A stretch of DNA of 64,000 nucleotides from positions 132,147,325 through 132,211,324 of the forward strand of contig CM068829.1 in the NCBI GenBank assembly GCA_028554795.2. Direction: 5' to 3'. The first letter of the stretch is position 1. Each line of letters starts with the position of its first letter. Below, in pieces: positions 1,019 to 43,795 of this stretch. The notes beneath the pieces were generated by a model, which was not told where the DNA came from, did not search any database, and saw only the letters and a program-made list of their open reading frames with translations. A program made the translations under genes and the position numbers. The stretch comes from Sinohyriopsis cumingii (Eukaryota > Mollusca > Bivalvia > Unionida > Unionidae).

Positions 1019-1431
1019 AGTAGTGAAAGGGGATACCGTAGCCTCAATGGGAATTAACATTACAGACCCCTCCCCCCGGGACACTATAGCCTCAATGGAA
1101 ATTTAACATGGAGAAAAATCGTTGGACACAATAGCCTCAATGGAAATTTAACATGGAGAAAAATCGTGGGACCATATAGCCTCAAGGGAATTTAACATGG
1201 AGAAAAATTGTGGGACCATATAGCCTCAAGGGAATTTAACATGGAGAAAAAGGGGACTGTATAGCATCAAAAGGAATTTAAAAAGGGTGGGACTGTATAG
1301 CGTCAAGGGAAATTGAACATGGGATTTTTAAAAAAAAAATTAAAAAAAATTTTTTTTAAAAAGGGGTAGGCAATCGAAAGTCATTCTCTTTTCGAGAAAT
1401 GTGGGTGGCCCTGAAAAGGGCCTTTGGGTTT
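1019..1431 (+). repeat. Left terminal inverted repeat, element 1
   Basis: Inverted partner of 20758-21148. It is built from about six tandem subrepeats of roughly 45-50 bp with the core ATAGCCTCAA...GGAATTTAACATGGAGAAAAAT, then a poly-A/T tract (1327-1360). The inner end, 1381-1431, on the minus strand reads as a histone-type stem-loop with downstream purine block. Subrepeats closest to the tip differ slightly from inner ones. The copies differ in length (413 against 391 bp) through subrepeat and homopolymer changes. Confidence 0.9.
1381..1422 (-). terminator. Histone-type 3' stem-loop and HDE-like block, gene 1 of element 1
   Basis: On the minus strand, CAAA precedes GGCCCTTTTCAGGGCC (stem 1407-1422: 6-bp stem, loop TTTC), followed by ACCCA (1402-1406) and then CTCGAAAAGAGAATGA (about 1381-1396), like the purine-rich U7 target. 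It begins 25 nt after the stop codon of the 198-aa gene. It matches the metazoan replication-dependent histone mRNA 3' end in stem length, loop and ACCCA tail. It lies within the left TIR. Confidence 0.85.
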
Positions 1432-1446
1432 CTTCTGCTTCTTCTT

Positions 1447-2043
1447 CTATTTCCTCCATTTCCTCATCCAGCCCCTAATCTTTCTCCAAATTCCTTTGTT
1501 CTTCCTCTTTTCTTTTTCTGGTAACCAGTCTGGGTGACCCATAGCCCTGAACTTCTCTTGTATCTTGATCCAATTTTGATTGACTTTGTCAAAGGCCTCT
1601 TTCTTCTTTATTGTTTCCTTATCCTGTCTTTCTTGACTCCATTTTTCTTTTATCTTTTTCACCTCTTCAGTCATCACTTGTTTCATTATTTCTTCTCCTT
1701 TTTTCAACCTGTCCAGCCCCCTCTTCACATATGACAACTCCGTCCAATACACTATATGTTCTAGGAAGCACCGGACTTGGATGACATAATCCAGTGCTTC
1801 CTTCAAACTCCCCACTCTGACATAAGGTGGGTCAATAAATCCTCTTGATTTGTTGACTTCATCTTCTATCATTCCTTCTATTATATGTCTGGCGGCCTTT
1901 AGACGTTCGACTTGACTGGTTACCAAGTGTTCTTTATCTTCATACTTCCATTCCTTTTGTATCCTTTCTATAACATATTCTGCATCTATCATCCAGAAAT
2001 AGATATGCCTCAATTGATTAAATAAATCAGTCACTTGCCTCAT
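1447..2043 (-). CDS. Left-end helical protein 1 (198 aa), histone-type 3' end
   Basis: Function unknown. It is mostly alpha-helical and charged. Two copies of a helix-loop-helix module of about 50 residues can be seen: roughly residues 6-66, ending EGMIEDEVNKS, and 80-132, ending MKQVMTEEVKK. The module resembles that of gene 3 (3355-3717). A long lysine/glutamate helix follows, then a basic tryptophan-rich tail, WRKIRGWMRKWRK. No signal peptide or membrane segment. A TATA-like CTATAAGAAC lies at 2091-2100 and the shared promoter motif at 2108-2133. The stop is 25 nt before a histone-type stem-loop. Start chosen at the first ATG after the TATA box. The equivalent gene of element 2 (26937-27326) has one module and a similar basic tail. 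Confidence 0.75.
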   Translation of the reverse strand: MRQVTDLFNQLRHIYFWMIDAEYVIERIQKEWKYEDKEHLVTSQVERLKAARHIIEGMIEDEVNKSRGFIDPPYVRVGSLKEALDYVIQVRCFLEHIVYWTELSYVKRGLDRLKKGEEIMKQVMTEEVKKIKEKWSQERQDKETIKKKEAFDKVNQNWIKIQEKFRAMGHPDWLPEKEKRKNKGIWRKIRGWMRKWRK

Positions 2044-2090
2044 CTTGTCTAGATTATTCTATAGAATGGTGCGAACGACGAACTTTGTAT

Positions 2091-2133
2091 GTTCTTATAG
2101 TTAAAGTGCGGACGTGAAGGAAAACATCCCCCT
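2091..2133 (-). promoter_or_regulatory. Shared left-end promoter module, gene 1
   Basis: On the minus strand: AGGGGGATG, then TTTTCCTTCACGTCCGCAC (2108-2133), then the TATA-like CTATAAGAAC (2091-2100) about 50 bp before the start codon. A second motif copy lies at 2177-2202. The same arrangement precedes the two neighbouring small genes and the three equivalents in element 2. Confidence 0.7.
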
Positions 2134-2176
2134 AAGACATAAAATTGATATTACCTAGATCATGACCAAACAACGC

Positions 2177-2202
2177 GCGGACGTGAAGGAAAACATCCCC
2201 CT
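2177..2202 (-). promoter_or_regulatory. Second copy of left-end promoter motif
   Basis: Minus-strand copy of the motif ending TTCACGTCCGCGCG, upstream of the gene-1 copy. The two are separated by a conserved spacer containing TTGGTCATGATCTAGG. Element 2 repeats the pair at 27391-27417 and 27461-27486. It may be a duplicated activator site. Confidence 0.55.
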
Positions 2203-2406
2203 ACTTTCTCATTTCATATAATAAAACCCAAACTATACTCTTCACATACGCTAAGAAACAATAAAACAAACCCATAATCTACTATTCACACAAACTTACT
2301 TGAGCGGTTACAAACACAAACACAAACACATACACTCACACTATGAGAAAAGAGTCCGTGTTTATATTCACACTACTCTACCTACACACATTGGCAAATT
2401 GATGGT

Positions 2407-2446
2407 TATTTCTTTTCTAGAGTATTGGGTAGCCCTGAAAAGGGCT
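2407..2446 (-). terminator. Histone-type 3' stem-loop, gene 2 of element 1
   Basis: Minus strand: AGCCCTTTTCAGGGCT (2431-2446), ACCCA (2426-2430), then CTCTAGAAAAGAAATAA (2407-2422). The outer stem pair is A-T here instead of G-C in gene 1, a compensated change that keeps the 6-bp stem. It lies 32 nt after the gene-2 homologous stop (2478-2480). Confidence 0.85.
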
Positions 2447-2477
2447 GTTTTTTTTTTTGAACTTCATGGACACCTGG

Positions 2478-5121: not shown

Positions 5122-5126
5122 GGCTT

Positions 5127-28139: not shown

Positions 28140-28170
28140 GTTTTTTTTTTGGAACTTCATGGACACCTGG

Positions 28171-28548: not shown

Positions 28549-28600
28549 TTTTGGTGTTGATCAATCAACAAGGGTAGCTGGACTGCCGAACGAGTTTCAA

Positions 28601-29016: not shown

Positions 29017-29048
29017 GTTTTTTTTTTTTGTTTGCTATGGCATTCTTT

Positions 29049-29405: not shown

Positions 29406-29454
29406 CTTCTTAGGAGGATGAGTCGACAATGGATGGTTAGACTGGAAACAACCC

Positions 29455-29497
29455 GGTTCTTAAAGTCAAAGCGCGGACGTGAAGGAAAACATCCCCC
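29455..29497 (-). promoter_or_regulatory. Shared left-end promoter module, gene 3 of element 2
   Basis: Minus strand GGGGGATG plus TTTTCCTTCACGTCCGCGC (29473-29497) and ACTTTAAGAACCGGG in TATA position, as in element 1. Confidence 0.65.
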
Positions 29498-29559
29498 ACA
29501 CGGTTTTTGAGTCGCAACGTTTAGTGAGTGTCATGAGAGGGATAGTAAGAAATGAAAGA

Positions 29560-29832
29560 GCATCAATCCAACATTCTTATAGCTAAACAAAAGACAAAGG
29601 CATTTTTTTTCAAAACACAACATTTTTTATTCAAAAATCACTTAACGCTAAACAACAACTCTAACATTTTTAACAATAATCCAACAATATAACATCAAAC
29701 AATTTTTTTCAAAACACATTTTTTATTCAAAAATCACTTAACACTAAACAACAACAACTCTAACATTTTTAACAATAATCCAACACTAAAAGTTTCTCCA
29801 CTAGGTAAAGAGGGATAACAGTCTTCCATGGT
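29560..29832. other. Deletion scar: protease and CYGC genes missing in element 2
   Basis: The T-rich 3' region equivalent to 3900-4050 is present and partly duplicated (two AATAAA blocks on the minus strand, 29626-29631 and 29722-29727). It then joins directly, at about 29790, to a sequence matching the first 40 bp of the CYGC gene (5085-5125 in element 1). So about 1.1 kb, including the whole protease gene, was lost. Confidence 0.8.
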
Positions 29833-29834
29833 TT

Positions 29835-31148: not shown

Positions 31149-31164
31149 TTTTTTGTCTCTTTTC

Positions 31165-31581
31165 TCAATAATCGAAAACGTCTAAGTCTCGAACGGTTCT
31201 TCTTTTCTTGGCCTTTCTCGCTTGAAGTCTGGTGAAAGGGTGTTTTCTTCGTCGTCTCTTTCTGCCTTGTCCTTGCTGAATGCCTGACTCGGTAGCGTGC
31301 AGGGCATTTATAGGTGTTTCTCGTTGGCCTAAAATGTCTTTGCCCGCTTGCAGCAAGACATTTTTGCCTGCCCTCATGAAGGCTTCTTTAGGGTTTTGTT
31401 TGTCGATGATGACATTTTGGAGAAATTCTTTGCCTTGAGTCAGTGCCGCATCTTTCAAGGCGTGCAATCCGCGTGTCACCATCGGTTTCAACACCGGGGC
31501 CACCGAACGAAAGGCCGATTTTAACATATCTCCTAATCCGTGTCCTCGCTGTCGAGCAACCCCCCGGTACACTGGATACAT
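31165..31581 (-). CDS. Basic virion protein, pX/pVI-like, element 2 (138 aa)
   Basis: Close homologue of 6448-6873. RQRGHGLGDMLKSAFRSVAP starts the helix; three residues are lost in the basic tail (RLQARKAKKRRTVRD). The stop falls 16 bp before the MCP start. As in element 1, the basic C-terminus suggests nucleic-acid contact; the amphipathic N-terminal helix could be membrane-active. Assignment by position and composition. Confidence 0.6.
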   Translation of the reverse strand: MYPVYRGVARQRGHGLGDMLKSAFRSVAPVLKPMVTRGLHALKDAALTQGKEFLQNVIIDKQNPKEAFMRAGKNVLLQAGKDILGQRETPINALHATESGIQQGQGRKRRRRKHPFTRLQARKAKKRRTVRDLDVFDY

Positions 31582-31584
31582 AAC

Positions 31585-32514
31585 TTAAGAATCGTGAGAG
31601 AACCGTTTCCGAAAATGGAGTTTCACCGTGACTTTTCCTTTGGTGAATGGAATATTTTGTCCCAGATCTCCTTTTATAGCAATGTTGACCGTGTCCAAAT
31701 ACGACTTGCTGACAGGCAAATAGTGAGGATGGACAAATTCGCGGTGGACGTGGTAAGTGTTTCCACCTTCCTCGTCAGCGCCCGTGGCAGAATCTACTTT
31801 GAAAGGAATGACACGCAGTAACGGTACGGAGGTGTGTCCCACCACGTTGTACTCCACCACATCGGAATACACGAACATCAAATTCAGTCCTTGGTTCAGT
31901 TCTACCGGGGCACGAAATAACTTGCTAAAAGACTCGTTGTCGTAAACGATGGGTAATTCGTTTTTCTTGAGCATGGCCTTTCTCATGTCCATGTCTCCGC
32001 CCAACATGTCAAACAATTCAGGACAAAATAAAATGGACACGATTTTACTTCGTTCAGATTTCATCAAGAAGCGACGAGCTGCTTTGTGGTACTCCATGGT
32101 GACACTTTTGTTGACATGCTCCAAAGCTTTCAGAAACACGACATTAAACCTGGAGGCTATGGTGCTGACCAAATGTTGACCACTAAAATAATAGCCTGGG
32201 GGAATGAACAAGTGATAGGTGGTGTACTTTTGATTTTGTGTACGGGTTTTCTTGTCATATTTGACATTGCTATCCATCCACTGTTGCATTTGCTCGTCAT
32301 GAACTTCCACATCAAAAAAATTTTGATTGGGAAGGACATTGAGGACTTGGGTCGGGTGAATCATTTCTACTAAAGCCACTTCCCAATGGGCTTCGTGATC
32401 TAACTGGATGGCCTGAGGTAATTTGGCCGTGTAACAGCACAACGTGTTCTTGGGAAACACCTCCATGGAACTGTCACTGGGTAAAGTTAAGTAAAATTGG
32501 TTTTGGTGACTCAT
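31585..32514 (-). CDS. Penton / minor capsid protein, element 2 (309 aa)
   Basis: Intact single-jelly-roll candidate. N-terminus MSHQNQFYLTLPSDSSMEVF; the central region differs from element 1 in a loop (around residues 100-115 and 165-180), while the C-terminal third (GLNLMFVYSDVVEYNVVGHT to KRFSHDS) is almost identical. Variation concentrated in two loops would fit surface exposure. The 4-bp overlap with the membrane-protein gene is conserved. Confidence 0.75.
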   Translation of the reverse strand: MSHQNQFYLTLPSDSSMEVFPKNTLCCYTAKLPQAIQLDHEAHWEVALVEMIHPTQVLNVLPNQNFFDVEVHDEQMQQWMDSNVKYDKKTRTQNQKYTTYHLFIPPGYYFSGQHLVSTIASRFNVVFLKALEHVNKSVTMEYHKAARRFLMKSERSKIVSILFCPELFDMLGGDMDMRKAMLKKNELPIVYDNESFSKLFRAPVELNQGLNLMFVYSDVVEYNVVGHTSVPLLRVIPFKVDSATGADEEGGNTYHVHREFVHPHYLPVSKSYLDTVNIAIKGDLGQNIPFTKGKVTVKLHFRKRFSHDS

Positions 32515-32924
32515 AATTCCAGAGTTCTGTGGCTGTCCGAGGGGTTACTGGACGTCAGAGGCGTGTCTCCGTCTACAATGGGGTTCTGGTTGTGGTTGAA
32601 GTGGTGACTGGCACTGGTACTAGACACAAGGTTCCCGGGGTTCCCGTTCGAGGTGAATTTCAAGGAGGGATTAGGAAGCAGGTAACCGATGCAACTGCTC
32701 AATAAAATGGTCCACAATTGTTTGTCTCCTTGTTGCAAACTCAAATTGGCGATGGCTGCCCCGATGACACAATACACCACGAAGATTTGGCAGAAAAAGA
32801 CGATTTGCGTTTTAGGCACACGTTCTCCACACCACACCCACAAGGGTTGTTTTTGTAAATCTTGCACAGAAGAACTGGGTGAAGGAGGAGTGGTCGACGT
32901 AGCTGCGTCTGTGTGAAAAGGCAT
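32511..32924 (-). CDS. Conserved Polinton membrane protein, element 2 (137 aa)
   Basis: Homologue of 7806-8219 with the same membrane helix (VFFCQIFVVYCVIGAAIANL) and LWTILLSSCIGYLLPNPSLK. The C-terminal Ser/Asn region differs (no long Asn tract). Start ATG 32922-32924. It lies directly downstream of the integrase; its start overlaps that region by the same spacing as in element 1. Confidence 0.65.
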   Translation of the reverse strand: MPFHTDAATSTTPPSPSSSVQDLQKQPLWVWCGERVPKTQIVFFCQIFVVYCVIGAAIANLSLQQGDKQLWTILLSSCIGYLLPNPSLKFTSNGNPGNLVSSTSASHHFNHNQNPIVDGDTPLTSSNPSDSHRTLEL

Positions 32925-32929
32925 GATGG

Positions 32930-34039
32930 TCACTTCTTTTTATAGTCGATGACTTGCGAAGCGTCGATCCAAGAATCAAAACTGGGCGGATATCCTTTCC
33001 AACGTACTTTGACTTCTTTGACACGTCGTTTGCCCACTTTACGGGTTCTGCGTTCGAGAATGCTTTCGATGTCGTACACGTCGTCTTCTTTTTTGGTGAC
33101 ACGTTGTAACTCGGGCAAATAAAACGTTCCTTTGAGCACTTCTCCGTTCATGTCTTCCAATTTATAGACGGCAGGATGACGGCCATGCACTCGTCCAGTG
33201 ACGCGAAACAGTTCGGTCGTCCAGTTAGGTAAGTAACCTTTGTCAAAAGTGCGTTTGGTTTTGCCAATGCGCACCCAATCTCCTACGGCCAACTCTCCAC
33301 TTTTCTTGGGGACAGCCCTCGTCGGGGACGTACCAAACAGGCGCTCAAACACCAGCACTTCGTTGTCGGGAGTCACGTCTTGCGGGGCACGTCCGATGCT
33401 TCGATGGTAAGATTGGTTGTACGCTTGCACCAGGTGCGGTAAGATGTCGATGTACTTCAGAGTGTGGTGATGCGTAAAATATTTCCACATGAGTTCTTTC
33501 AAAGTGCGTTGAAAACGTTCCACGATGCTGGCTTTGGTTTCGGGATTCTCGGTGGTAAAAAAATGAATGTCACGTTTCTTTAATTCTTTTTGGAAAGCTT
33601 GGTTCAGAAACTCGGTGCCTTTGTCCGTTTGCCATCGAAGAGGGTGACGACCGCTTTGTTTCAACACCCGTTGCAGGGCTCGCACTAACTCGCTGCTCGA
33701 TTTGGAAGTCAAGGGCACGACCCAGGCAAATTTGGAAAAGACGTCGATGACACAAAACAAATATTTGTAGCCACGATTGTAGCTGGCCAAATGAGAGACA
33801 TCGGCTAAATCGGTTTGCCATTGATGATCGATGCCTTCCACTCGGGTGCGACTTCTGGCAAACTTGCGTCGAATGGGTTTGTGTAAAATGTAGGTAGCTT
33901 GTTCTTGTAACCATCGTTGCACTTGAGGTAAACGGAGACTTTTCAGTCGCGTTTTGGCAGCACGATACAATTTTTGAACTCCTGCGTAACCTGCAGGATG
34001 GGAGGGATCGTAGTAAATGCTGGCTAAGACTTTTTCCAT
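32930..34039 (-). CDS. Polinton integrase with chromodomain, intact (369 aa)
   Basis: DDE integrase that would insert the element with 6-bp duplications. Catalytic residues seen: Asp77 (WQTDLADVSHL), Asp139 (WQTDKGTEF) and Glu174 (ASIVERFQRT), giving D-x61-D-x34-E. C-terminal chromodomain at about residues 313-369 (YDIESILERRTRK, then EVKVRWKGYPPSFDSW), with aromatic cage-like Y, W and W positions. Chromodomains can target integration to methylated histone tails. Start MEKVLASIYYDP at 34037-34039, fitting element 1. No lesions. Confidence 0.95.
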   Translation of the reverse strand: MEKVLASIYYDPSHPAGYAGVQKLYRAAKTRLKSLRLPQVQRWLQEQATYILHKPIRRKFARSRTRVEGIDHQWQTDLADVSHLASYNRGYKYLFCVIDVFSKFAWVVPLTSKSSSELVRALQRVLKQSGRHPLRWQTDKGTEFLNQAFQKELKKRDIHFFTTENPETKASIVERFQRTLKELMWKYFTHHHTLKYIDILPHLVQAYNQSYHRSIGRAPQDVTPDNEVLVFERLFGTSPTRAVPKKSGELAVGDWVRIGKTKRTFDKGYLPNWTTELFRVTGRVHGRHPAVYKLEDMNGEVLKGTFYLPELQRVTKKEDDVYDIESILERRTRKVGKRRVKEVKVRWKGYPPSFDSWIDASQVIDYKKK

Positions 34040-34060
34040 TTTTTTGTGTTGGTTGGTGTG

Positions 34061-34699
34061 TTAATAAGACACCCACTCTTGGAGGATGATACTCTTTTTC
34101 TCTTGGGGTATTTTCTTGGATTGCAATGCTTTGCGTGTGCGGCCAGCAATAGGTGTCAAAGAGGAGAAGGATGTCTGAGCGGGGAATATAGGTTCTTGTT
34201 TCACTTCTGTCTTCACTTCTGTCTTCACTTTCTTTTTCTCTTGTGAGGAAGAAGGGGTGGCCATCATCTTTTTAATCCATCCAATTCTGGAGGTAGGTGG
34301 TGTTGTTAACTTGCGTACTTTTTCTGGTGGAGTTTGAAACCCTTCCTCTTCTTCTCCTTTTTCTGTCTTGGTCACGGGTACTGGTGGTACTGGTACTGGT
34401 ACTGGTGATGGTGCTGGACTTTTCATCAAGGTCTTAAAATCTTTCAGAGTGGGGAGAGCTGTTTCGTCTAAAGCTTTCTGGTGAAAGAGTTGCAGTCGTT
34501 GCAAGAGTTGACCGTACTTTTGCGATTTTTCTGTTTCGGACAAATCTTGGCGATCCATCAAGGACTGCAATTCGTGTTGTAACTGGGACATCTCGCTCAA
34601 ATGGGGATTGGGAGGTAAATGCGGGGTGTGTTGTTCTTGCCAACGATGGTATTCCATCCATCGTTTGTAAGGCACTAAAGCTAGTTTTCGTCCTTCCAT
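34061..34699 (-). CDS. VPYKRW coiled-coil protein, element 2 (212 aa)
   Basis: Homologue of 9356-9991. MEGRKLALVPYKRWMEYHRW; coiled coil around residues 40-75; Pro-Val repeat shorter and shifted (PVPVPVPPVPV); basic tail with RKLTTPPTSR. Stop 21 bp upstream of the integrase start. Intact. Probably a virion or scaffold component; function not known. Confidence 0.6.
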   Translation of the reverse strand: MEGRKLALVPYKRWMEYHRWQEQHTPHLPPNPHLSEMSQLQHELQSLMDRQDLSETEKSQKYGQLLQRLQLFHQKALDETALPTLKDFKTLMKSPAPSPVPVPVPPVPVTKTEKGEEEEGFQTPPEKVRKLTTPPTSRIGWIKKMMATPSSSQEKKKVKTEVKTEVKQEPIFPAQTSFSSLTPIAGRTRKALQSKKIPQEKKSIILQEWVSY

Positions 34700-34747
34700 G
34701 GGGTTGTCAGGGGTCGATTCTGAGATCTTGGAACTTCCGAGGCCTTT

Positions 34748-35134
34748 TTATCTTGCTCCCATCAGTCCTCCCAACATAGTTCCCAAGACTCCTTTCAGTA
34801 TGGGGCCTAACAAGAGAGGTAAAATACCTCCACGTTGCACTAACATCTTCTTTTTTTGACGAATGGGAATTTTCTTTTGAACCATTTGGCGAAGAACGTG
34901 ACGATGTTTGCCTAAACATTGTTTCTGGTGTTTGGACAAAGGGATCGTGCCTTTCGAAACGTTCAAACAACATTCGCACACGGTATCGATGACCTCTTTG
35001 GAAGCTGTTTGAATGAGTTTGTTTCGTAGGGGTGGAGAAGCTTTGGACAGGACAGATAACATGTCCCCATGTTTGGCTAAACGTGGTGGCAGTCCTTTCC
35101 TTTTCTTTCCTTGGGGTTTTCTGGAGGGTGACAT
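34748..35134 (-). CDS. pX-like core protein, element 2 (128 aa)
   Basis: Homologue of 10041-10445. Starts MSPSRKPQGKKRKGLPPRLA; lacks six residues of the N-terminal SQQ stretch. Cysteine pair and hydrophobic tail (RGGILPLLLGPILKGVLGT) are conserved. A longer frame ten codons upstream begins in the promoter region and is less likely. Very basic; suggested DNA-condensing virion core protein. Confidence 0.65.
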   Translation of the reverse strand: MSPSRKPQGKKRKGLPPRLAKHGDMLSVLSKASPPLRNKLIQTASKEVIDTVCECCLNVSKGTIPLSKHQKQCLGKHRHVLRQMVQKKIPIRQKKKMLVQRGGILPLLLGPILKGVLGTMLGGLMGAR

Positions 35135-35192
35135 CTTTGAGTCTTCAGGAGCACCAAAAAACACTGATACCCGACTTGGTCACAGGCCTTTT

Positions 35193-36113
35193 TTATACTG
35201 GAACGCGTCGCCACTGATTGTCTTTACGTCGTATTAGTTTGAGGACAGGCATGACACGTCGTGCAGGGGTACGTAACGGACTAAATCGAGCTAGTTCTTG
35301 CTTGGACAAATCCAGTAAACTTTGTAACATGCCCGATCTTTCTTGAACTTTGATTTTGGGAGAAGGTACTTTGTGAGCAGCAGCCACTGCCACTAAATTG
35401 GAAGGTCCTGCCACTGGGGAAGATCTTTTGGGGGTCATCAACGGAGAAGTTCTTGGTGTGATCAACGTTTCCAAGTACTCTTCAGTTCTGGGTGTCATTA
35501 ACGGAGAAGTGGACAAACGTGAAGCTGCCGGAGACGCAGTCACCGCCGTGGCAGGTCGTGGTTTGCGAGTGTAAGGTTGCGTCCTGGCCGAAGTGCCTCT
35601 CTTGCGACTAGTTTTCTGTGGACTTTTCTTTCTCTGGGGGCTTCTTTTCTTTTTCCGGGGTGGTGGTGGTGTCTGGTCAGAGGAGGGTCCTGCCACTGGA
35701 GACGTTCTCCGTGGGGACCTGGTCTTTTTCTTCTTGGGGCTTCGTTGGACTTTTGTCTTGGGTATAACTTTGGGGGCATTAGGATCCCATCTTAAGAGTG
35801 AGCGAATGATGACCCCTCCTAGAGTACCGCTCCCTCCAGGTGTCAAAATGATTTGTTTTTTGGTTTGAGTGTCGATGCGGGGATCGGCCATTTGGACCAA
35901 AGCGACTTTGTTTCGATCGAAAAAGCGTTTGGTTTGATGAGGAATCTGAATGATTCCTTGGAGTAATTGACGTGCCGTCACCGTGAACCATCGTAAGACT
36001 TCTTTGAGACTAGCTTCTAAGACACGAGCTCGTGTTTGTGGATCTTTTTCTCGACTGATGCCATACAAGGCACGAATCAATTTGACGGGAAGATGCGACT
36101 GAAGGGACGTCAT
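35193..36113 (-). CDS. Basic SP/KKK-repeat protein, element 2 (306 aa)
   Basis: Homologue of 10504-11451. Globular N-terminal third conserved (MTSLQSHLPVKLIRALYGIS); the low-complexity SPxKKK region is shorter, with PPPPRKKKRSP in place of a KKK block. C-terminal block conserved. Repeat-number variation indicates replication slippage. TATAAAAA at 36154-36161. Inferred virion DNA-binding protein. Confidence 0.55.
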   Translation of the reverse strand: MTSLQSHLPVKLIRALYGISREKDPQTRARVLEASLKEVLRWFTVTARQLLQGIIQIPHQTKRFFDRNKVALVQMADPRIDTQTKKQIILTPGGSGTLGGVIIRSLLRWDPNAPKVIPKTKVQRSPKKKKTRSPRRTSPVAGPSSDQTPPPPRKKKRSPQRKKSPQKTSRKRGTSARTQPYTRKPRPATAVTASPAASRLSTSPLMTPRTEEYLETLITPRTSPLMTPKRSSPVAGPSNLVAVAAAHKVPSPKIKVQERSGMLQSLLDLSKQELARFSPLRTPARRVMPVLKLIRRKDNQWRRVPV

Positions 36114-36167
36114 GTTCGCACTGAGAGTGAGACAGACGAAAAAGGGTCTGAGGTTTTTATAGATTTT

Positions 36168-36912
36168 TTATGGGGAGTGAAATGAAGTCGAGGACGGAGA
36201 CGTGTACAGGACAGGCCCTCCGTCTTGGCACCAGTGGTGAAACAAGTGGGTACGAAATCGCAAATCCTCGGGAGTCGTAGGTTTCAAATCGACGAGTAAA
36301 TAGGCGTGTGGCGTTTGAGTGGCATCGTCGTACGCCTGAGTCAGCCAAGGCGTTCCTAACTGTTTGGCTAAGACTTGCACTTGCGATTTATCTCGAGGGC
36401 TTTTAAACAAGACCACGTAATGCGCATTGAGACTGATGGTGCGATGGGTTTTACTTTGTTGAAACAAATTTTGGGGTGATGTAAACGACACTGGCATTAC
36501 GGTGATGCCCTTTCCGCGTGAACCACAGTTTAATTTCTTCTTCGTCTTCTCCTAACATGTCGTCGAAAATGACCAAATGGGTTAGACGGGAGTCAGAGAC
36601 GATGCCATCGTCTTCTTTAGGAATGCCTTCCACAAACACGATGGAATCGCCTTGACTTTCTCGCAAGAGGCTGTACGCCGATTGCCACTCTTTGTAACAC
36701 CACACGATTCGTTGAGGGGGTCGATCGATCAAATGATGTTTATGTTCGATCAAACGTTTGACGAATTCGGTTTTGCCTGAACCGCTAGGTCCAGCAATGA
36801 GCATGTTAAAGGGATGGCGAAGATACAAAGCCTCCCAACTGGCACGATCTAAGTGTTCGTCGATGACTTTGACAGTGGAGGAAGAGGGAGCAGAGACAGC
36901 AGAGGTAGCCAT
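36168..36912 (-). pseudogene. Packaging ATPase, one-base frameshift
   Basis: Starts MATSAVSAPSSSTVKVIDEH at 36912. Both nucleotide-binding motifs look ideal: Walker A GPSGSGKT (residues 41-48) and Walker B LVIFDD (113-118). An extra G in the run at 36473-36476, compared with element 1, shifts the frame after residue about 146, just past the sensor VYIT. The C-terminal third continues in the other frame to 36168. So element 2 keeps the motifs and loses the frame, while element 1 keeps the frame and has lost the motifs. Confidence 0.9.
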
Positions 36913-36958
36913 GGTGTGAGAAATGTCACTTGTGACACGAAAAACAAACAAGACAAGA

Positions 36959-36988
36959 GTTTATATACTTTTTCAGAACACGTTTATT
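36959..36988 (-). promoter_or_regulatory. ATPase TATA box and upstream AATAAA, element 2
   Basis: Minus strand AATAAA (36983-36988), then AAAGTATATAAACTC (TATA at about 36959-36966). Conserved with 12288-12317. Confidence 0.6.
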
Positions 36989-37132
36989 GAATGTTTCAAA
37001 CATGAATACGAAAGACAAAAATACATAAAAGCCAAAGGCTTAAGTACAAGAATAAAAGGCACATGATAACCATGAACGTGGAATAAACACAAGTGTCTGT
37101 ACAACATGTTTTGGGTAAAGTTCTAACCAGTT

Positions 37133-37414
37133 CTATAGTAGGGGTAAGGTCACACAAGTGTCCTCCCGAAAGGGTCTTTCAGGCCTGTCCACGACAGTCC
37201 TGTCCTGGGTGACGGGTTCTTCTGGCACCGTCACTAATACAGGTTGAAAAGTAACTTTTTTCCTTGAATAACTCTCGTGCATACTGGGTCGCCTCTTGTG
37301 TCCAAGCCTCAAAACCCTGGTCTCGGTGATGTCCAACATTTGACTCCTAACCAATCTGGTTTCTTCTACGTCAACGACATGGTAAGTTACTTCAATGAAC
37401 AACGAACTATCCAT
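37133..37414 (-). CDS. Rearranged small protein (93 aa) at deletion junction
   Basis: Residues about 46-90 (MHESYSRKKVTFQPVLVTVP and onward) match the middle of 12325-12669. The first 40 residues (MDSSLFIEVTYHVVDVEETR) have no counterpart there; they derive from sequence next to the PolB end. The C-terminal membrane helix of the element-1 frame is lost through a shorter G run. The start overlaps the PolB stop by 8 bp and uses its TATATAAAAAGG (37428-37439). The accessory block of about 2.1 kb, including BIR, is missing between these points. Product doubtful. Confidence 0.4.
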   Translation of the reverse strand: MDSSLFIEVTYHVVDVEETRLVRSQMLDITETRVLRLGHKRRPSMHESYSRKKVTFQPVLVTVPEEPVTQDRTVVDRPERPFREDTCVTLPLL

Positions 37415-40400
37415 CTTGCCTAGGGTTCCTTTTTATATACAGACCAATACCGACGTGACCGTACGGTAAGGTGAAGTGATTGGGAAGTCGCACTCGCTTC
37501 TGGTATACAATTTGATAGACTTTTTCCAAGGGTCGACTGACGATGTGGTGAGTGGGTAAACGTACAATCTTGTTGAGTTGATAGGTGGTCACTTTAAAGT
37601 TTCCATCCTCGCCCGATTGCAAGGCTTCTTTCAATACCCCAAAGTTGACCACTCGACTGGTACGATGATTCAGAGTCAGTCCTTTCACTTTGCACGTCGT
37701 GTGCACTTTTCCTTGTTTGTCCCGGTATTCGTAGCCGTAATTTTTGGGACCACCACTGACGAAACTTAGAATCTTGTCGTCGGGATGCTCGTCTGTCCAG
37801 GCTCCTAAACGGTCTCCTTCGATGTCAGGATGCTGTTGAATCGGGTGATGGATGTAAATGCAACTGTCCGTGTCAAAGTACAGGACGCGTTCTTCTAACA
37901 GTTCTAAAGCTTCGTACAATTTTAAGCGAGCATGAGCTGTCACGTAAGCCGCAATGATGACATTTCCAAAAGGGTCGTCTTGTACAAAGTCCAGATCTTC
38001 TTCGTAATTGACCAAGATCAAATCCTCTCGAACGACGTCCACGTGTTTCATGTATTTGGTTTTGTCGTGAATCATCTGGAAGTAGCGGGAAGGTTCTGTC
38101 AAATATTCCGTCTTGGGTAAACACGGTCGTTGTGCCATTTTACCCCACAAGCAATTTAACATCACTTTGGCAAACGATCGCCTGCCTTCGTTTTTTTCGA
38201 TGTGGTCTAAAGAGATGCCTTCTTGTGCGTAGTACTTCTCTTTGAATTGTATTTGGTCTTCGGGAGTGTGACACCAGGAAGGATAGCCGCTGGCTTCTTG
38301 CTTCAGTTTCAAAAAGGCATCCACGTAGTCGGTGAAAATGCCTTTCTGAGTAGGGTCACCCTTGTGGTACTGTTGTGTCTTGGGAAAGTGGCAAATTTCG
38401 TACACTTCTAACAGTTGGTATCCCATGTCCAGAGCTTTGAACAATTCCACGCTGACCCAGGTTCCCGTCAAGGCACGTTCTTCCTGGCTGTGATGGCAAG
38501 GTTGGTCCTGGTTGCACGTTTCGGCACAAGTACGGCACAATGGAAACATCAGTTTGCCTTGACAATGGTGAGGTAAGACGGGATGGTATAGGTTCGTGGG
38601 AGGCAAAACTTTACACTTGATCAAGCCTTCGTATTGTCGAATGTTTTTCAGGTCGATGTGTTCCGTGAACAATTGCCGGTGCCCTACAGGAAAGCGACAA
38701 TATTTGCACACGTAGGGATACAGCGAACACACGTCCAAGTATTTGATTTCTTCTCCTTTCTCTTCGTCGGCTTGGTACAGCAAACAGGTGGCATTGGTCC
38801 TTCCTCCGTACAAACTATCCCTCGGGTTCAGCGGGTCCATGAACTGGTAACTTTCCACGAGGCGTATAAACTCGGGATCGGTTTTCATACGGTGATCGTA
38901 CTCGTGTTCCCACATTTCCACCACTTGGTATCCTTGCTGTTCTAACTTTAGGCGTCGCTGACAAGTGTCCTGGTACAAGTCTTCCATGGTTCGTTGCAAA
39001 AACTGATTTTTAGTGTCACGGTCAGGGTAACAGACGGGACATCCGTGAAATAAGCAACCGTTAAACTCGTACACGATCTTGGGGTTTTCTAAGTCCCAGC
39101 CATCTACCGAATACGTTCCGATGGTCTTTTCGCCTCCTCCGTTGCGGGCATGCTGAATCCATTTGTCTTCCTTGTCGCACAAGTAATGTAACCAACGTAG
39201 GGCTTTGACCGAGTATTGACGCTTGACATAGTGGGTCGTTTGAGGACTGATGACAGCCACGGTCTTTTCAGGCATGAATCGTTGGCGGTACACTAAGGAA
39301 CACGCTTTGGCAATGGTGCAAGCTTCTTTCAAAGGATCGACCCCTCCGTGTTCCATGAACAGTTCTCGAAATTTTCCACAGCAACGTCGTAAAATGTCCA
39401 CTTCGGAACGACAATACTTTAACATTTCTTCCTGAAAGTCGAAGGGGTCAGAGGCATGAGCCTGGTACCAAGCGTAGAAATCTTCTCGTTGTTCGGTACG
39501 CATGTTGTCGGGGTCGTAATAGTGAGCCTCAGGTAAATGGGGTAGAACGGCATGTTGATTGGCTTCCGTATTGAAAAAGTGTGGAAAGTACCCTTTAGCC
39601 ATTTCTGTCATTCCAAACGTTTTAGGCATTCGACTCAAAGGCATGGCCAAGTAACTCATCGAATCTTTAAACTGTACTTGTCCCACTTGCATGAAAATGA
39701 TTTTGGCTCCGTTCAAAGTCACTTTAGGACGTTCGGTGCCTTGTTCCGTATAGTATCTGAGAAGAAACTGTCCATCGTATCCGGAGAAATTGTGAGCCAT
39801 CACCGTGGCATGACGATGACAATCTCCGTAACGTTCGATGTCCTCTTGGCTCCACGTGTTGTCGATGGGGTCTAAGACCCATTGGGCAAAATCGGCTAAC
39901 GTGTTTGGTCCCCGAAAGATTTTTTCACGTCCTCCAGGAATCTTGCTGCAGTGAGGGCAATGACTGCAGATAGGTTCTTGAATGCACTTCTCGCACGCTC
40001 GATGAGCCACGCAGAAATTAGGAATGTGAATGCCAGTCTCTTGCATGCATTCGAAATCGAAAAAGATGAAATTGCCTTTCTTCTTGTGACCGTCCTCTTT
40101 CTCTGGTGGGGGTTGGTATTTTTGCACGTAGCATTCGTGTTCCAAGTCCACGATGTGGTGACAAATGTGACATTTTTTCTTTCCTCGACATACGTGTGCC
40201 TTGGTACTATTGGTACGTATGCCTTGTCCACAGGTAGGGCACATTCTCAGCAGTTGACAAGCACATTTCTTCTGTGAACCTTGTGTTTTCAAATGTTGTT
40301 GGTAACAGGTAGGACTGACAAACGTGCGCAGACAAGTTGAACAAGGCACTGGTTCTTCGCTCAGACAGGGTGGAGAGGCCAAACATCCTGGGCATTTCCA

Positions 40401-41471
40401 TCCACAATGTTTGTGTTGCTCTCGATTGTTATAACCATAGTCACATTTCTCACAATAATAAACATATCCCAGGAATCCGGTGATACTGGTAATGGTATCG
40501 AAATGTTCATCGTGATGATAGACATGAATGTATTTTCCGTCCTTAAAATCTTGGCCTCGAAACAACAGAGACCCACGCATTTCTTGAGGGTGCACTTTCA
40601 AGGTGTAGCGTGGAGCTAGGGCATCTTGCAATTTTTGCATCTCAGGAATGCCACAGGGTGTGTCTTTGGACAGTCCGGCTTGTTGTAACAGGAGTTCTGC
40701 TTCGTTTCGTTGTTTGGCTCGGTCCGATCGTTGAATAGTTTTCCAGGTTCTTTTCCATTCTACCGTGTCGTTCTTGTTGGCATAGGTTCGTCCCACCACG
40801 ATGGCACGGGCTAAACACATCTGGTCTTGAGGGTTGTGAATTCGGACGAGACTTGTTTTGGTGTTGCGAAGGTTGTCCACCAATAACATCTTTTTGCGTC
40901 CTGTCCCTTGAGGAAGAGATACGTGGGCCATTTTCAGTGTGGCTTTACCATCGGTGATGTCAAACTGGTCATTAGATTTTTGTACGTGTTGAATCTTGTC
41001 CATGATTTTGGAAGGGGTTAGTTCTGCGGGTCTGCTAAACTCGATCCAAACAGGGGATTTCAAACCGTCGTGATCTATGGATAGTGTCAAGCGATCGTCT
41101 TCTTTGGCTTGACATTGTCGCTTGAGTGCGGTGAGCAAAGAATCCCACATCTCGGTGATAAACCCTTCTGCTTTCTCCAAGGGTACGTCGGCCTTGAAAT
41201 CTTTAAACTTCACCGTGTAGGTGTAAGCCGTGGTTCTAAATTTTCTAGAGGAGCGCTTTTCCGTCTCTCGAATGGAATAGTACTTTTCAGGGTTGACTAA
41301 GGGTGGTGAACTTGGTTTAGAGGGTTCGGATTCTGGTTCACTCATGTCCTCTTCAAAATCACTGGCATGAATTTGTGCCAAGATTTCAGCCCTGGTACGA
41401 GGCGATAGATCACGTTTCTGCCTCTTACTTTCTTCTTCTTCTTTCTTCTCGAATGAATAGGATCGTTTCAT
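37407..41471 (-). CDS. Protein-primed DNA polymerase B, intact (1354 aa)
   Basis: Replicates the linear element from protein-primed ends. Features in order: charged N-terminus; Cys/His-rich zinc region about residues 339-448 (YYCEKCDYGYNN, CPTCGQG, CHICHH); Exo I D472-x-E474 (FFDFEC), Exo II HNFSGYD (560-566), Exo III YCRSEVD (686-692). At about 800-860 sits an insertion with YEFNGCLFHGCPVCYP and MWEHEY, like the Vsr-type endonuclease domain found in Polinton polymerases. Pol A DVCSLYP (913-919), Pol B KVMLNCLWG (1102-1110), Pol C YFDTDS (1198-1203). Length is usual for the long Polinton type. Divergent promoter with the zinc-knuckle gene. Confidence 0.97.
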   Translation of the reverse strand: MKRSYSFEKKEEEESKRQKRDLSPRTRAEILAQIHASDFEEDMSEPESEPSKPSSPPLVNPEKYYSIRETEKRSSRKFRTTAYTYTVKFKDFKADVPLEKAEGFITEMWDSLLTALKRQCQAKEDDRLTLSIDHDGLKSPVWIEFSRPAELTPSKIMDKIQHVQKSNDQFDITDGKATLKMAHVSLPQGTGRKKMLLVDNLRNTKTSLVRIHNPQDQMCLARAIVVGRTYANKNDTVEWKRTWKTIQRSDRAKQRNEAELLLQQAGLSKDTPCGIPEMQKLQDALAPRYTLKVHPQEMRGSLLFRGQDFKDGKYIHVYHHDEHFDTITSITGFLGYVYYCEKCDYGYNNREQHKHCGWKCPGCLASPPCLSEEPVPCSTCLRTFVSPTCYQQHLKTQGSQKKCACQLLRMCPTCGQGIRTNSTKAHVCRGKKKCHICHHIVDLEHECYVQKYQPPPEKEDGHKKKGNFIFFDFECMQETGIHIPNFCVAHRACEKCIQEPICSHCPHCSKIPGGREKIFRGPNTLADFAQWVLDPIDNTWSQEDIERYGDCHRHATVMAHNFSGYDGQFLLRYYTEQGTERPKVTLNGAKIIFMQVGQVQFKDSMSYLAMPLSRMPKTFGMTEMAKGYFPHFFNTEANQHAVLPHLPEAHYYDPDNMRTEQREDFYAWYQAHASDPFDFQEEMLKYCRSEVDILRRCCGKFRELFMEHGGVDPLKEACTIAKACSLVYRQRFMPEKTVAVISPQTTHYVKRQYSVKALRWLHYLCDKEDKWIQHARNGGGEKTIGTYSVDGWDLENPKIVYEFNGCLFHGCPVCYPDRDTKNQFLQRTMEDLYQDTCQRRLKLEQQGYQVVEMWEHEYDHRMKTDPEFIRLVESYQFMDPLNPRDSLYGGRTNATCLLYQADEEKGEEIKYLDVCSLYPYVCKYCRFPVGHRQLFTEHIDLKNIRQYEGLIKCKVLPPTNLYHPVLPHHCQGKLMFPLCRTCAETCNQDQPCHHSQEERALTGTWVSVELFKALDMGYQLLEVYEICHFPKTQQYHKGDPTQKGIFTDYVDAFLKLKQEASGYPSWCHTPEDQIQFKEKYYAQEGISLDHIEKNEGRRSFAKVMLNCLWGKMAQRPCLPKTEYLTEPSRYFQMIHDKTKYMKHVDVVREDLILVNYEEDLDFVQDDPFGNVIIAAYVTAHARLKLYEALELLEERVLYFDTDSCIYIHHPIQQHPDIEGDRLGAWTDEHPDDKILSFVSGGPKNYGYEYRDKQGKVHTTCKVKGLTLNHRTSRVVNFGVLKEALQSGEDGNFKVTTYQLNKIVRLPTHHIVSRPLEKVYQIVYQKRVRLPNHFTLPYGHVGIGLYIKRNPRQDG

Positions 41472-41518
41472 CTTGAGTGCAAAACGTCAAATGACTCAAG
41501 TTCAAACACCATAGACTA

Positions 41519-41556
41519 ATTTATAGTCATGGCAAACCAGCGTATATAAAAAGGGT
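41519..41556. promoter_or_regulatory. Divergent promoter, PolB and zinc-knuckle gene, element 2
   Basis: Minus CTATAAAT (41519-41526) and plus TATATAAAAAGGG (from about 41543) in the same arrangement as element 1, about 50 bp and 55 bp from the two ATGs. Confidence 0.7.
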
Positions 41557-41604
41557 GTGTCTTGTCCTTTCACTATTCATTTCACTCTCAAACCGAGGAG
41601 AACG

Positions 41605-42087
41605 ATGGAAGAGACTAGCCAAATCGAACGTTTCGTCAGAGCTTTGCGAGGGGTCATTAGAAAATTCTCTTCAGACCAGCCGACAGACTACTCTCCTTCC
41701 TTTCGAGATAAGAGTCAGGATACTTGCTATACCTGTCAGAAGAAAGGGCATTGGTCTTCAGAGTGTCCAGACCGTCAAAAAAGAAAAAAAACAGGGGCTA
41801 AAAAAGACAAAAGTCAAGATACCTGTTATTATTGTAAAGAAAAAGGACATTGGTCTCCAGATTGCCCAAAAAAGAAACAAGAGGAGTCAAAAGAAAAGAA
41901 GGATTCTTCAGAAGAAGAGAGGGATTCTTCGGAAGAAGAGAGGGATTCTTCGAAAGAAGAGAGGGATTCTTCAGAGGAAGAAAGAAGACAATTCTATTTA
42001 AAAGAAGCAAAGAAACAGGAGAAGAAAAGAAGAAGGGAAGAAAATGAGGAAAAAACGGTGAAGAAATTCAAAAAACAGAGAGACTAA
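41605..42087 (+). CDS. CCHC zinc-knuckle protein, element 2 (160 aa)
   Basis: Homologue of 18976-19422, start at ATG 41605 (an upstream in-frame ATG lies in the 5' leader). Knuckles DTCYTCQKKGHWSSEC and DTCYYCKEKGHWSPDC are conserved at all eight ligands. The DSSEEER repeat is expanded to four copies (two in element 1), and FYLKEAKKQEKKRRREE follows. Expansion within a charged linker with constant knuckles fits a flexible nucleic-acid chaperone-like protein; that role is inferred. Its AATAAA is degraded (AATACA) near 42170. Confidence 0.8.
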   Translation: MEETSQIERFVRALRGVIRKFSSDQPTDYSPSFRDKSQDTCYTCQKKGHWSSECPDRQKRKKTGAKKDKSQDTCYYCKEKGHWSPDCPKKKQEESKEKKDSSEEERDSSEEERDSSKEERDSSEEERRQFYLKEAKKQEKKRRREENEEKTVKKFKKQRD

Positions 42088-42312
42088 ACAAGGAGAAAGA
42101 AGAAGTCAATGAACTTTTAATTAAAGTGTTGTGCTGTGAATTGGATTGTAAAAAATGGATAAAAGAATACATGAATGATATAAGGTAAGTGTCTTTGAGT
42201 TTTGATTTTAAAATAAGAAGCTACACTCACGCACTCATACACAGACACGTACTATAAGGGTAAAATGGGTGGGGTTTATTTTTGAGTTATTGGCAAATTG
42301 AAATTGTATTTC

Positions 42313-42346
42313 TTTTCGAGAAATGTGGGTGGCCCTGAAAAGGGCC
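42313..42346 (-). terminator. Histone-type 3' stem-loop, Gln-rich gene of element 2
   Basis: Minus strand: GGCCCTTTTCAGGGCC (42331-42346), ACCCA (42326-42330), then TTTCTCGAAAAGAAATA. 26 nt after the stop at 42372. Confidence 0.85.
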
Positions 42347-42371
42347 TTTTTATTTTGGTGTAGGGGTGAGT

Positions 42372-42932
42372 TTAACCTATCAACTTTAACTGCCTTAAGC
42401 CTTTGCCACGGCCAAGGCCTACTTCTGATGATTGGGTTGAAATCACTAAGGGTGGTACGATAGGCTTAGTCACAGGGTTGGCGTGTTTAGCTCGGGAAGG
42501 TCGTATTCTCTTCGGTCGTGATAAAGAAGTCTGATACATTTGTTTCAGACTTCTTAACTCCGCTAAAATGTCCAACAGTACCGTAGCCGTTTGATTTTCA
42601 CCCTCTTGTTTCTTTGCTGCTACTTCTTCTTGCTGTTGTTGCTGTTGTTTTTTTCTTACCTCTTCTTGTTGCTGTTGCTGTTGCTGTAGGAGAAAAGCTT
42701 GTTCCGCTTCCTTTTGTCGTTGCATAAATTTCTCCAATTCTTCTTTCTGTCTCTGTCTAAAATTCTCCACTTGCGGTAATGAAGAAGGTAACGAAGGTTC
42801 CGGAACAAATTCTTGCGAGGTAAGAAAATCCACAAAATCCCAATGTACCTCTTCTGAAAGTAAGTCCGGGTTCCCTTGGGCAGTCTCCCCTGCTGGTGCA
42901 CCCCAATGGATCGTTTTCTGAGTTTCCGTCAT
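42372..42932 (-). CDS. Gln-rich coiled-coil protein, element 2 (186 aa)
   Basis: Homologue of 19711-20289. Coiled coil with EQAFLLQQQQQQQEEVRKKQ and an added glutamine tract; the leucine-heptad helix (VLLDILAELRSLKQMYQTS) is unchanged; the Ser run near the C-terminus of element 1 is missing; the C-terminus GLGRGKGLRQLKLIG is conserved. Constant helix and tail against variable Gln/Ser tracts suggests that dimerisation and binding regions are under constraint. Divergent promoter with the 78-aa gene at 42970-43105. Stem-loop 26 nt downstream. Confidence 0.7.
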   Translation of the reverse strand: MTETQKTIHWGAPAGETAQGNPDLLSEEVHWDFVDFLTSQEFVPEPSLPSSLPQVENFRQRQKEELEKFMQRQKEAEQAFLLQQQQQQQEEVRKKQQQQQQEEVAAKKQEGENQTATVLLDILAELRSLKQMYQTSLSRPKRIRPSRAKHANPVTKPIVPPLVISTQSSEVGLGRGKGLRQLKLIG

Positions 42933-42969
42933 GTTGAATCACTGTCGCATAGATTGACTGCACACAAGC

Positions 42970-43107
42970 GCTAACGAATCTATATAGACCACGTGACGTC
43001 ACAGACTGTTCTCTTCGGATTGGATCCGAGCTGACTGAATTTTGTAACGCGTGTTCGGATTGGTGAATGAATTCAATCCGTTTCAATCCTTCCTGTACCT
43101 ATAAATA
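42970..43107. promoter_or_regulatory. Right-end divergent promoter, element 2
   Basis: Minus-strand TCTATATAGATT TATA, CACGTG fused to TGACGTCA near 42990-43001, two inverted CCAAT boxes (TTCGGATTGG near 43014-43023 and 43054-43063) and plus-strand CTATAAATAAGC near 43098-43109. All elements are conserved with element 1. Confidence 0.7.
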
Positions 43108-43151
43108 AGCGCAGTTCACTGCATTGATTCACCTGTTCTCGTCGCTTCAAG

Positions 43152-43388
43152 ATGTGGACCACAGTTGAGTCATCCACCCTTGTGTCTTCCATGATGTTTA
43201 GGACGGACATGCTCATGTATGTCAGGTCCAAGTGGACTGTTGTTGATAGGACAGATACTAGTCAATGGATGAGGAGAGTTTACATAGAAAGACAAGGATG
43301 TCTCAAGAGGGTACTTGTGTATGGACCGGCAGTTAGAAGGAGTTTAAGAAGAAGAAGAAGAAGATGTGACAGATGCCATCTATGTTAA
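43152..43388 (+). CDS. Arg-rich CxxC mini-protein, element 2 (78 aa)
   Basis: Homologue of 20509-20742, differing at about three residues plus one extra Arg (SLRRRRRRCDRCHLC). Such strong protein conservation, compared with the fast-changing left-end genes, points to a required function. The stop is 25 nt before the right-TIR stem-loop. Function unknown; the CxxCxxC end may bind metal. Confidence 0.7.
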   Translation: MWTTVESSTLVSSMMFRTDMLMYVRSKWTVVDRTDTSQWMRRVYIERQGCLKRVLVYGPAVRRSLRRRRRRCDRCHLC

Positions 43389-43403
43389 TATTAATATTAA
43401 CAT

Positions 43404-43795
43404 AAACCCAAAGGCCCTTTTCAGGGCCAGCCATATTTCTCGAAAAGAGATAGCCTTTCCATTGCCTACCCTTTTTTTAAATTTAAATTTAAATTTAAAT
43501 TTAAAAAAATAAAAAAAAAAATATCCCATATTCAATTCCCCTTGTCCCTAGACAGACCCAAACTCTATTCCCCATGTTCAATTCCCCTTGTCCCTAGAGT
43601 GACCCACGATTTTTCTCCATGTTCAATTCCCCTTGTCGCCAGAGTGACCCACGATTTTTCTCTATGTTAAATTTCCCTTGTCGCCAGAGTGACCCACGAT
43701 TTTTCTCCATGTTAAATTTCCATTGTCGCTAGAGTGACCCAGGGGTCTCTGTAATGCTAATTCCCATTGTCGCTAGGGTGACCCCATTTACTACT
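43404..43795 (-). repeat. Right terminal inverted repeat, element 2
   Basis: Inverted partner of 26541-26920, ending CCCCATTTACTACT. Subrepeats have the TTGTCGCTAGAGTGACCC core. It carries an AAATTT-type AT tract longer than the left copy, and the plus-strand stem-loop block at its inner end. Confidence 0.9.
43413..43450 (+). terminator. Histone-type 3' stem-loop in right TIR, element 2
   Basis: Plus strand: CAAA, GGCCCTTTTCAGGGCC (43413-43428), AGCCA (43429-43433), then TTTCTCGAAAAGAGATAG (43436-43453). 25 nt after the stop of the 78-aa gene. It shares the C-to-G change in the tail with the left TIR copy of the same element. Confidence 0.8.

Follow-up and report, generated by a model that had tools for sequence, protein, structure and literature searches.

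Introduction

To our knowledge, histone-type mRNA 3′ ends are nearly private to histone genes in animals. In the sequences described below, GAAAAGA stands where histone genes have the downstream element that pairs with U7 small nuclear RNA (snRNA), and the U7 small nuclear ribonucleoprotein (snRNP) cleaves 4–5 nt after the stem, as set out in a passage of PMC7026596. One section of a 2025 study (PMC12220804) counts six histone 3′ untranslated region (3′UTR) stem-loops in the genomes of Polinton-like viruses and virophages, and leaves them unanalyzed there. Here, we present an analysis of a 64,000-nucleotide stretch of DNA (the window) from the bivalve Sinohyriopsis cumingii (assembly GCA_028554795.2, contig CM068829.1, positions 132,147,325 to 132,211,324 of the forward strand). 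The window contains two Polintons, each with five small genes, A–E, that are followed by a histone-type stem-loop and downstream element. Genes A–E are most probably transcription units that imitate the replication-dependent histone genes of the host.

Results

Histone-type 3′ cassettes of genes A–E

Element 1 (1019–21148) is the older Polinton copy and element 2 (26541–43795) the young one; neither is assigned a strand. A pattern search of the window with up to three mismatches returned exactly ten stem-loops, six of the form GGCCCTTTTCAGGGCC and four of the form AGCCCTTTTCAGGGCT, against an expectation of 0.29 from 100 dinucleotide shuffles, the largest of which gave 4. The Rfam model RF00032 (Histone3) places six of the ten above its gathering threshold (35.6–41.2 bits, E 1.2e-6 to 9.6e-9). 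The four stem-loops closed by an A-U pair, which belong to genes B and C, score 31.0 bits against the threshold of 34 (E 6.4e-5) and fall below the cut-off. All ten are located on the strand of the small gene that precedes them, at a distance of 24–32 nt from the stop codon in nine cases. In gene B1, an early stop lies 187 nt ahead of the stem-loop, and the site homologous to the stop codon of B2 about 31 nt ahead. The stem is followed by ACCCA in eight cassettes and by AGCCA in the two terminal inverted repeat (TIR) copies of element 2. The motif GAAAAGA is positioned 13 nt after the stem in all ten.

The cassettes were delimited by pattern search and Rfam. In element 1, those of A1 (1385–1427; stem-loop 1407–1422, tail ACCCA, downstream element 1385–1393), B1 (2409–2451; AGCCCT/AGGGCT stem-loop 2431–2446, downstream element 2409–2417), C1 (3292–3334; 3314–3329 and 3292–3300), and D1 (19646–19688; 19668–19683 and 19646–19654) are on the minus strand, and that of E1 (20762–20804; 20767–20782 and 20796–20804) is on the plus strand. 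The arrangement in element 2 is the same, with A2 (26874–26916; stem-loop 26896–26911, tail AGCCA, downstream element 26874–26882), B2 (28102–28144; 28124–28139 and 28102–28110), C2 (28979–29021; 29001–29016 and 28979–28987), and D2 (42309–42351; 42331–42346 and 42309–42317) on the minus strand, and E2 (43408–43450; 43413–43428, tail AGCCA, and 43442–43450) on the plus strand.

The A and E cassettes form the inner ends of the TIRs, the left and the right one, respectively, in element 1, and both sides turn identical at AAACCCAAAGGCCC. Genes A and E would therefore be transcribed outwards and end at the TIR. The cassettes of B, C, and D are outside the TIR. A first-pass annotation of the window had listed the ten stem-loops, placed each on the strand of its gene, named the ACCCA and AGCCA tails, and stated that both TIR copies fit their own gene, all of which agrees with our results. 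It overlooked the GAAAAGA element in all ten cassettes and the histone-type promoter module of genes A–C.

Comparison with the histone genes of the host

A search of the genome of S. cumingii (2.90 Gb, 1,138 contigs) for core histones, in which 150 of 662 candidates were scored, revealed tandem arrays whose repeat unit is about 8.3 kb long. Parts of one tandem unit served for the comparison, with H3, H2B, H2A, H4, and H1 named from their sequence. The stem-loops of the host genes are GGCCCTTTTTAGGGCC (H3 and H4), GGCCCTTTTCAGGGCC (H2B), GGCCCTTTTAAGGGCC (H2A), and GGTCCTTTTCAGGACC (H1). Each of the five genes has the downstream element GAAAAGA, or GAAAAGG in H2A, 13–14 nt after the stem. Since GAAAAGA is positioned 13 nt after the stem in the Polintons, the match extends beyond a mere hairpin to the complete 3′-processing signal of host histone genes. 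The first-pass interpretation of the hairpins as histone signals is thus supported by the stem-loop and spacing common to all five host genes that were read. Among 15 chosen host and Polinton stem-loops, 10 of them distinct, 100% of stem cells are paired, and two of the six stem pairs include a compensated change, seen in Polinton genes B and C for one pair and in host H1 for the other.

Histone-type promoter module of genes A–C

The promoters of host H1, H4, and H2A were compared with the regions upstream of the Polinton genes. Genes A, B, and C are preceded by GATGTTTTCCTTCACGTCCGCGC or a close variant, the counterpart of which in the host H1 promoter is GATGTTTTCAATCACGTCCGCGC. Gene B also shares TTTCTTTTAGGTCCGCGCGTT with the host H4 promoter. 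A third host copy of the module, ATGTTTTCCATTACGTCCGC, is located upstream of H2A on the opposite strand. All modules in the window are on the minus strand. Alignment to host H1 places them at 2106–2128 (proximal) in A1, which has a second copy at 2175–2197, and at 3785–3807 in C1 and 29471–29493 in C2. The modules of B1 (2913–2935) and B2 (28613–28635), identified by alignment to the host promoters, are accompanied by the H4-type TTTTAGGTCCGCGCG at 2983–2997 and 28687–28701, respectively. Gene A2 has only two imperfect copies (27390–27412 and 27459–27481, within 27390–27481), found by pattern search. The GTCCGC core is 70 nt from the ATG in host H4, 90 nt in host H1, and 70–75 nt in A1, B1, C1, B2, and C2. 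The core ACGTCCGC resembles what we take to be the site of the histone H4 transcription factor HINFP; a literature search gave no documentation of this.

Among the upstream regions of the window, local alignment to the host H1 promoter outscores all 500 shuffles of that promoter for six of six A, B, and C regions, none of four D and E regions, and none of 29 others, which in many cases consist of coding sequence from a neighboring gene. In the genome of S. cumingii, the module with up to three mismatches is present in 14/14 distinct upstream regions of A (matches below 45% identity dropped), 11/11 of B, and 8/9 of C.

The regions upstream of D and E contain TATA-like boxes and ATTGG motifs only. 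A histone promoter of D and E based on likeness to host H2A (shared ATTGG and TTCAATCC) was considered and dropped, because shuffles score as well in 33/500 and 8/500 cases for E, and in 395/500 and 218/500 for D.

Persistence of the signals in genomic copies

Of the RF00032 matches in the genome (75 of 589,472 candidates scored), the top eight and the following 20 belong to Polinton copies and not to histone genes. For a survey of copies, the genes were located by tblastn in 58 loci of the genome and in the window, and a stem-loop was called in the next 130 nt when it had at least five of six pairs and a TTT loop. Matches that stopped short of the protein end or were too near the locus end were excluded. 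The genes located in this way are followed by a stem-loop in 50/50 cases for E, 48/48 for D, 13/14 for B, and 9/10 for C, and the exact form [AG]GCCCTTTTCAGGGC[CT] is present in 48, 46, 11, and 9 of them, respectively. Gene A gave 44 matches, 15 with a stem-loop and 29 without. Of the latter, 28 have identities of 30–36%, and we interpret them as low-complexity hits on the CCHC zinc-knuckle gene described below; the remaining one (57% identity, locus L059) overlaps its own stem-loop. Twenty-eight of the 58 loci had been fetched for a strong RF00032 match, and the 30 loci fetched with D are mutually close, with 100% identical proteins. With the recruiting stem-loop of each locus and A matches below 45% identity removed, the counts are 36/36 for E, 46/46 for D, 13/14 for B, 9/10 for C, and 4/5 for A.

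The downstream element accompanies the stem-loop in 48/48 copies of D, 48/50 of E, 15/15 of A, 13/13 of B, and 8/9 of C. The mean pairwise identity of distinct fragments with a stem-loop is 0.95–1.00 in the stem and loop, partly by choice, because the stem-loop was required. It is 0.77–0.94 in the downstream element, 0.64–0.89 in the spacer between them, and 0.39–0.68 in the far flank (+61 to +94). Class B is also highly alike at +41 to +60 (0.91), contrary to a simple fall-off. As read from these alignments, the 3′ signal persists in diverged copies.

The exact cassette GCCCTTTTCAGGGCYA-N11-13-GAAAAGA occurs 50,760 times in the genome (25,147 + 25,613). For the promoter module in its exact form, the count is 31,228 (15,420 + 15,808), and the reversed-pattern control of each gave 0. 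Among the first 100 cassettes listed, 18 neighboring pairs have the D/E layout, divergent and 1.09–1.13 kb apart, and all 18 have at least one cassette in the A/B/C orientation 12–20 kb off on the D side. At five cassettes per element, these counts suggest, by our own estimate, about 10,000 Polinton copies, some of which are fragments.

Proteins encoded by genes A–E

The genes were delimited from the list of open reading frames (ORFs). In element 1, genes A1 (1447–2043, 198 aa), B1 (2478–2849), C1 (3355–3717, 120 aa), and D1 (19711–20289, 192 aa) are on the minus strand. The A1 protein has a basic C-terminus. The frame of B1, recognized by comparison with B2, is interrupted by the early stop, which leaves a 71-aa open part (2634–2849). 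D1 is a relative of D2 and is separated by a gap of 219 bp from the divergent gene E1 (20509–20742, plus strand), which encodes a basic protein of 77 aa. Element 2 contains genes A2 (26937–27326, 129 aa), B2 (28171–28548, 125 aa), C2 (29049–29405, 118 aa), and D2 (42372–42932, 186 aa) on the minus strand and E2 (43152–43388, 78 aa) on the plus strand.

None of the proteins A–E, including A1, matches a Pfam family above cut-off, and no histone family is listed for the ten proteins at E 1, B1 being covered through its open part only. In their predicted signals, A–E behave like histone genes, yet they encode non-histones. Similarity between A2 and A1 was not detectable beyond ten C-terminal residues (E 0.72). 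Position A holds proteins without detectable similarity in the two elements, yet retains its promoter module and 3′ cassette, and so resembles a slot whose content can be exchanged. No solved structural relative of A1 was found. D2 has 20 homologs among 5.8 billion proteins. The genome itself gave 34,020 first-look candidates for D2, and the best 150, which were scored, are without exception 99–100% identical, which indicates a very recent expansion. The predicted structure of D is one long helix followed by a basic region (mean predicted local distance difference test score 69, predicted template modeling score 0.28), which would suit a DNA-binding regulator.

Structure and gene content of the two Polintons

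Element 1 is delimited by terminal AGTAGTGAAAGG / CCTTTCACTACT, inverted arms with a 223-nt stretch that is 97% alike, and the flanks ACTATT and ACTACT, which match in 5/6 bases; its older age is indicated by these arms and by the interrupted frames of pPolB and gene B. The outer 308 nt of the element 2 TIRs are 100% complementary, and the 6-bp target site duplication TCCATG is present on both sides. TIRs are thus found in both elements, together with a 6-bp duplication that is full in element 2 and 5/6 in element 1.

The putative pPolB of element 2 (37407–41471; PF03175, E 3e-39) belongs to the protein-primed type B family. Element 2 also encodes an rve integrase (32930–34039; PF00665, E 8e-15) with a chromodomain (PF00385), and a Pox_A32-type ATPase (PF04665, above the Pfam cut-off). 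An adenovirus-type protease (PF00770) in element 1 scores below the cut-off. The capsid protein has no Pfam match and was recognized through bivalve homologs only, which we take to be Polinton capsid proteins. Among the best 120 of 929 relatives, those named are nearly all from bivalves (Mercenaria, Crassostrea, Ostrea, and Saccostrea), with one record from a bacterial metagenome-assembled genome (MAG).

The pPolB frame is a single open frame of 1354 aa in element 2 and is interrupted in element 1 (15695–18841 and 14778–15533). Beside the pPolB fragment, element 1 encodes a BIR (inhibitor-of-apoptosis) domain protein (14002–14745, minus strand; PF00653, E 1.5e-22); no ORF for such a protein was seen by eye in the ORF list of element 2. 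A gene with two CCHC zinc knuckles (18976–19422 and 41605–42087, plus strand; PF00098 tested in element 2) is arranged back to back with pPolB and has no histone-type signals. Outside the Polintons, the window contains a 236-nt inverted repeat (54942–55177 and 58573–58808) with 86% complementary arms 3.4 kb apart.

Polintons of other hosts and viral genomes

Four Polinton contigs were found in bacterial MAG records. Their capsid genes have identities of 43–45% in three contigs and 26% in the fourth, and the DNA is probably contaminating animal or protist DNA. In the viral contig collection, the pPolB query, capsid alignment, and cassette pattern were all without a match; the stem-loop alone occurs in seven contigs, and ACCCA and a downstream element follow it in none of the seven. 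A search of the open-licence literature for histone-type 3′ ends in Polintons gave nothing apart from the count in PMC12220804. The first-pass annotation, which knew of no report in Polintons, is to be qualified by the six stem-loops that this paper counts, without analyzing them, in Polinton-like viruses and virophages.

Discussion

A probable histone-like transcription unit in a mobile element

The analysis shows that the signals are complete, how they are oriented and spaced, that they match those of the host histone genes, and that diverged copies retain them. We infer from this the use of the stem-loop-binding protein (SLBP) and U7, the absence of poly(A), and the timing in S phase. In the proposed mechanism, host RNA polymerase II would make short, apparently intronless transcripts of A–E. 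Host SLBP should bind the stem-loop at the transcript 3′ end, and the host U7 snRNP should pair with the GAAAAGA element, which is spaced as in the host histone genes; the 5′ end of the U7 snRNA should pair with CTAGAAAAGA. Cleavage about 4–5 nt after the stem would leave mRNAs that have the stem-loop as their 3′ terminus and no poly(A). Since A–C carry the module of the host H1 promoter, and B also that of H4, the factors that act on the host histone genes probably also link the transcription of A–C to S phase. A likely benefit would be that A–E are expressed while host replication is on, and that transcripts have clean ends at the TIRs.

Several results weigh against this explanation. The promoter module is absent from all 39 distinct upstream regions of D and all 40 of E in the genome. 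Three copies with a stem-loop have no downstream element (gene E in loci L002 and L016, gene C in L052), and two lack one stem arm (B in L057, C in L054). The Rfam model did not identify a host U7 snRNA, nor was the host SLBP gene identified, in weak tests whose controls were also blank; U7 patterns occur at 458 places against 348 for the control in loose form and at 28 against 40 in a tighter form, and one SLBP-like match stayed below threshold (21.4 versus 27 bits). The four Polinton contigs of foreign hosts, which may lack the element ends, contain no RF00032 match at E 0.1 and no cassette in a looser scan. This suggests that the histone-type signal does not seem general to Polintons, and that Polintons can do without it. 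Finally, poly(A) signals are not depleted in the stem-loop genes: AATAAA or ATTAAA is located within 400 nt of the stop in 4/10, compared with 10/34 of other genes, and D2 has one AATAAA ahead of its stem-loop.

The last two observations speak for an alternative in which A–E mRNAs are mostly polyadenylated downstream and the stem-loop provides a conditional second 3′ end, such as some histone genes use outside S phase. Six of the ten genes, however, have no AATAAA or ATTAAA within 400 nt, and the full cleavage signal is conserved, which would be unneeded at a bypassed site. We regard this alternative as unlikely.

It is very unlikely that the hairpins terminate transcription or mark mRNA ends through a signal specific to the elements, one that has come to look like that of histone genes by convergence and operates independently of SLBP and U7. 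Giant viruses, which we take to have hairpin-based 3′ ends formed by palindromes, offer a precedent, as do the histone-type stem-loops counted in Polinton-like viruses and virophages in the section of PMC12220804 cited above. However, the resemblance also covers the TTTC loop, the tail, and GAAAAGA at the host spacing, and the promoter module is common to host H1 and H4. In addition, a Pfam scan of 20 proteins, which represent part of the ORFs, gave no match above cut-off to an RNA polymerase family; the match of A1 to an influenza polymerase subunit is below cut-off (14.4 versus 26.4 bits).

The cassettes might also be hitch-hiking relics of captured histone-gene DNA that are uniform because they are young and have no present use. 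The 99–100% identity of the D loci (the best 150 of 34,020 candidates) and the position of the A and E cassettes at the inner TIR end, where they would be copied with the TIR, are consistent with this explanation. The cassettes of B, C, and D, however, are outside the TIR, and the signal is retained where flanks and proteins have diverged. The A-U closing pair in B and C is compensated, and A1 and A2 keep module and cassette without detectable similarity of their proteins. Together, these observations make the relic explanation highly improbable.

A role of the hairpins at the DNA level, such as in replication or packaging where the TIR ends, is scarcely credible: two of five per element are exactly at the inner border, but three lie inside the element, each hairpin is placed after a stop codon on the strand of its gene, and the downstream element is strand-specific.

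The explanation that A–E imitate histone transcription units can be extended, and on the extension we are evenly divided. A virus-like transposon may have taken on histone regulatory dress, an SLBP/U7 3′ end on five genes and an S-phase promoter module on three, and so have become coupled to host DNA replication. With about 10,000 copies, most of the histone-type 3′ signal of the genome would be that of the transposon, which may compete with histone mRNAs for SLBP and U7.

In this genome, very many histone-type 3′ ends belong to mobile-element genes that are unrelated to histones, and some of them are combined with a histone promoter module. The elements are a natural system in which to ask what suffices for S-phase control of mRNAs, and provide a possible mechanism by which a Polinton could align its expression with host replication. 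Surveys of histone genes in such genomes that are based on Rfam or on RNA without poly(A) may be dominated by transposons. Conversely, poly(A)-selected RNA sequencing would miss A–E transcripts, so that their expression may have been overlooked.

Comparison with known systems

The histone 3′UTR stem-loop is shared with Polinton-like viruses and virophages (n = 6 in PMC12220804), for which, outside cryptophyte Polinton-like viruses, the section gives a bare count of non-coding RNA hits and describes no downstream element, promoter, or gene class. Replication-dependent metazoan histone genes resemble A–E in the RF00032 stem-loop, the ACCCA-type tail, the purine-rich downstream element at matched spacing, the short distance from stop to stem, and the small, apparently intronless genes. 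Genes A–C also share the promoter module of host H1, and B that of H4. Unlike histone genes, the Polinton genes encode non-histone proteins, are housed in a mobile element that is present thousands of times, and in B and C have a stem closed by A-U. With Polintons (Mavericks), the two elements share pPolB, the rve integrase with chromodomain, the A32-type ATPase, a putative capsid protein with bivalve homologs, TIRs, and the 6-bp duplication. They differ from them in a terminal gene class with histone-type 3′ ends, of which A–C also possess a histone-type promoter module.

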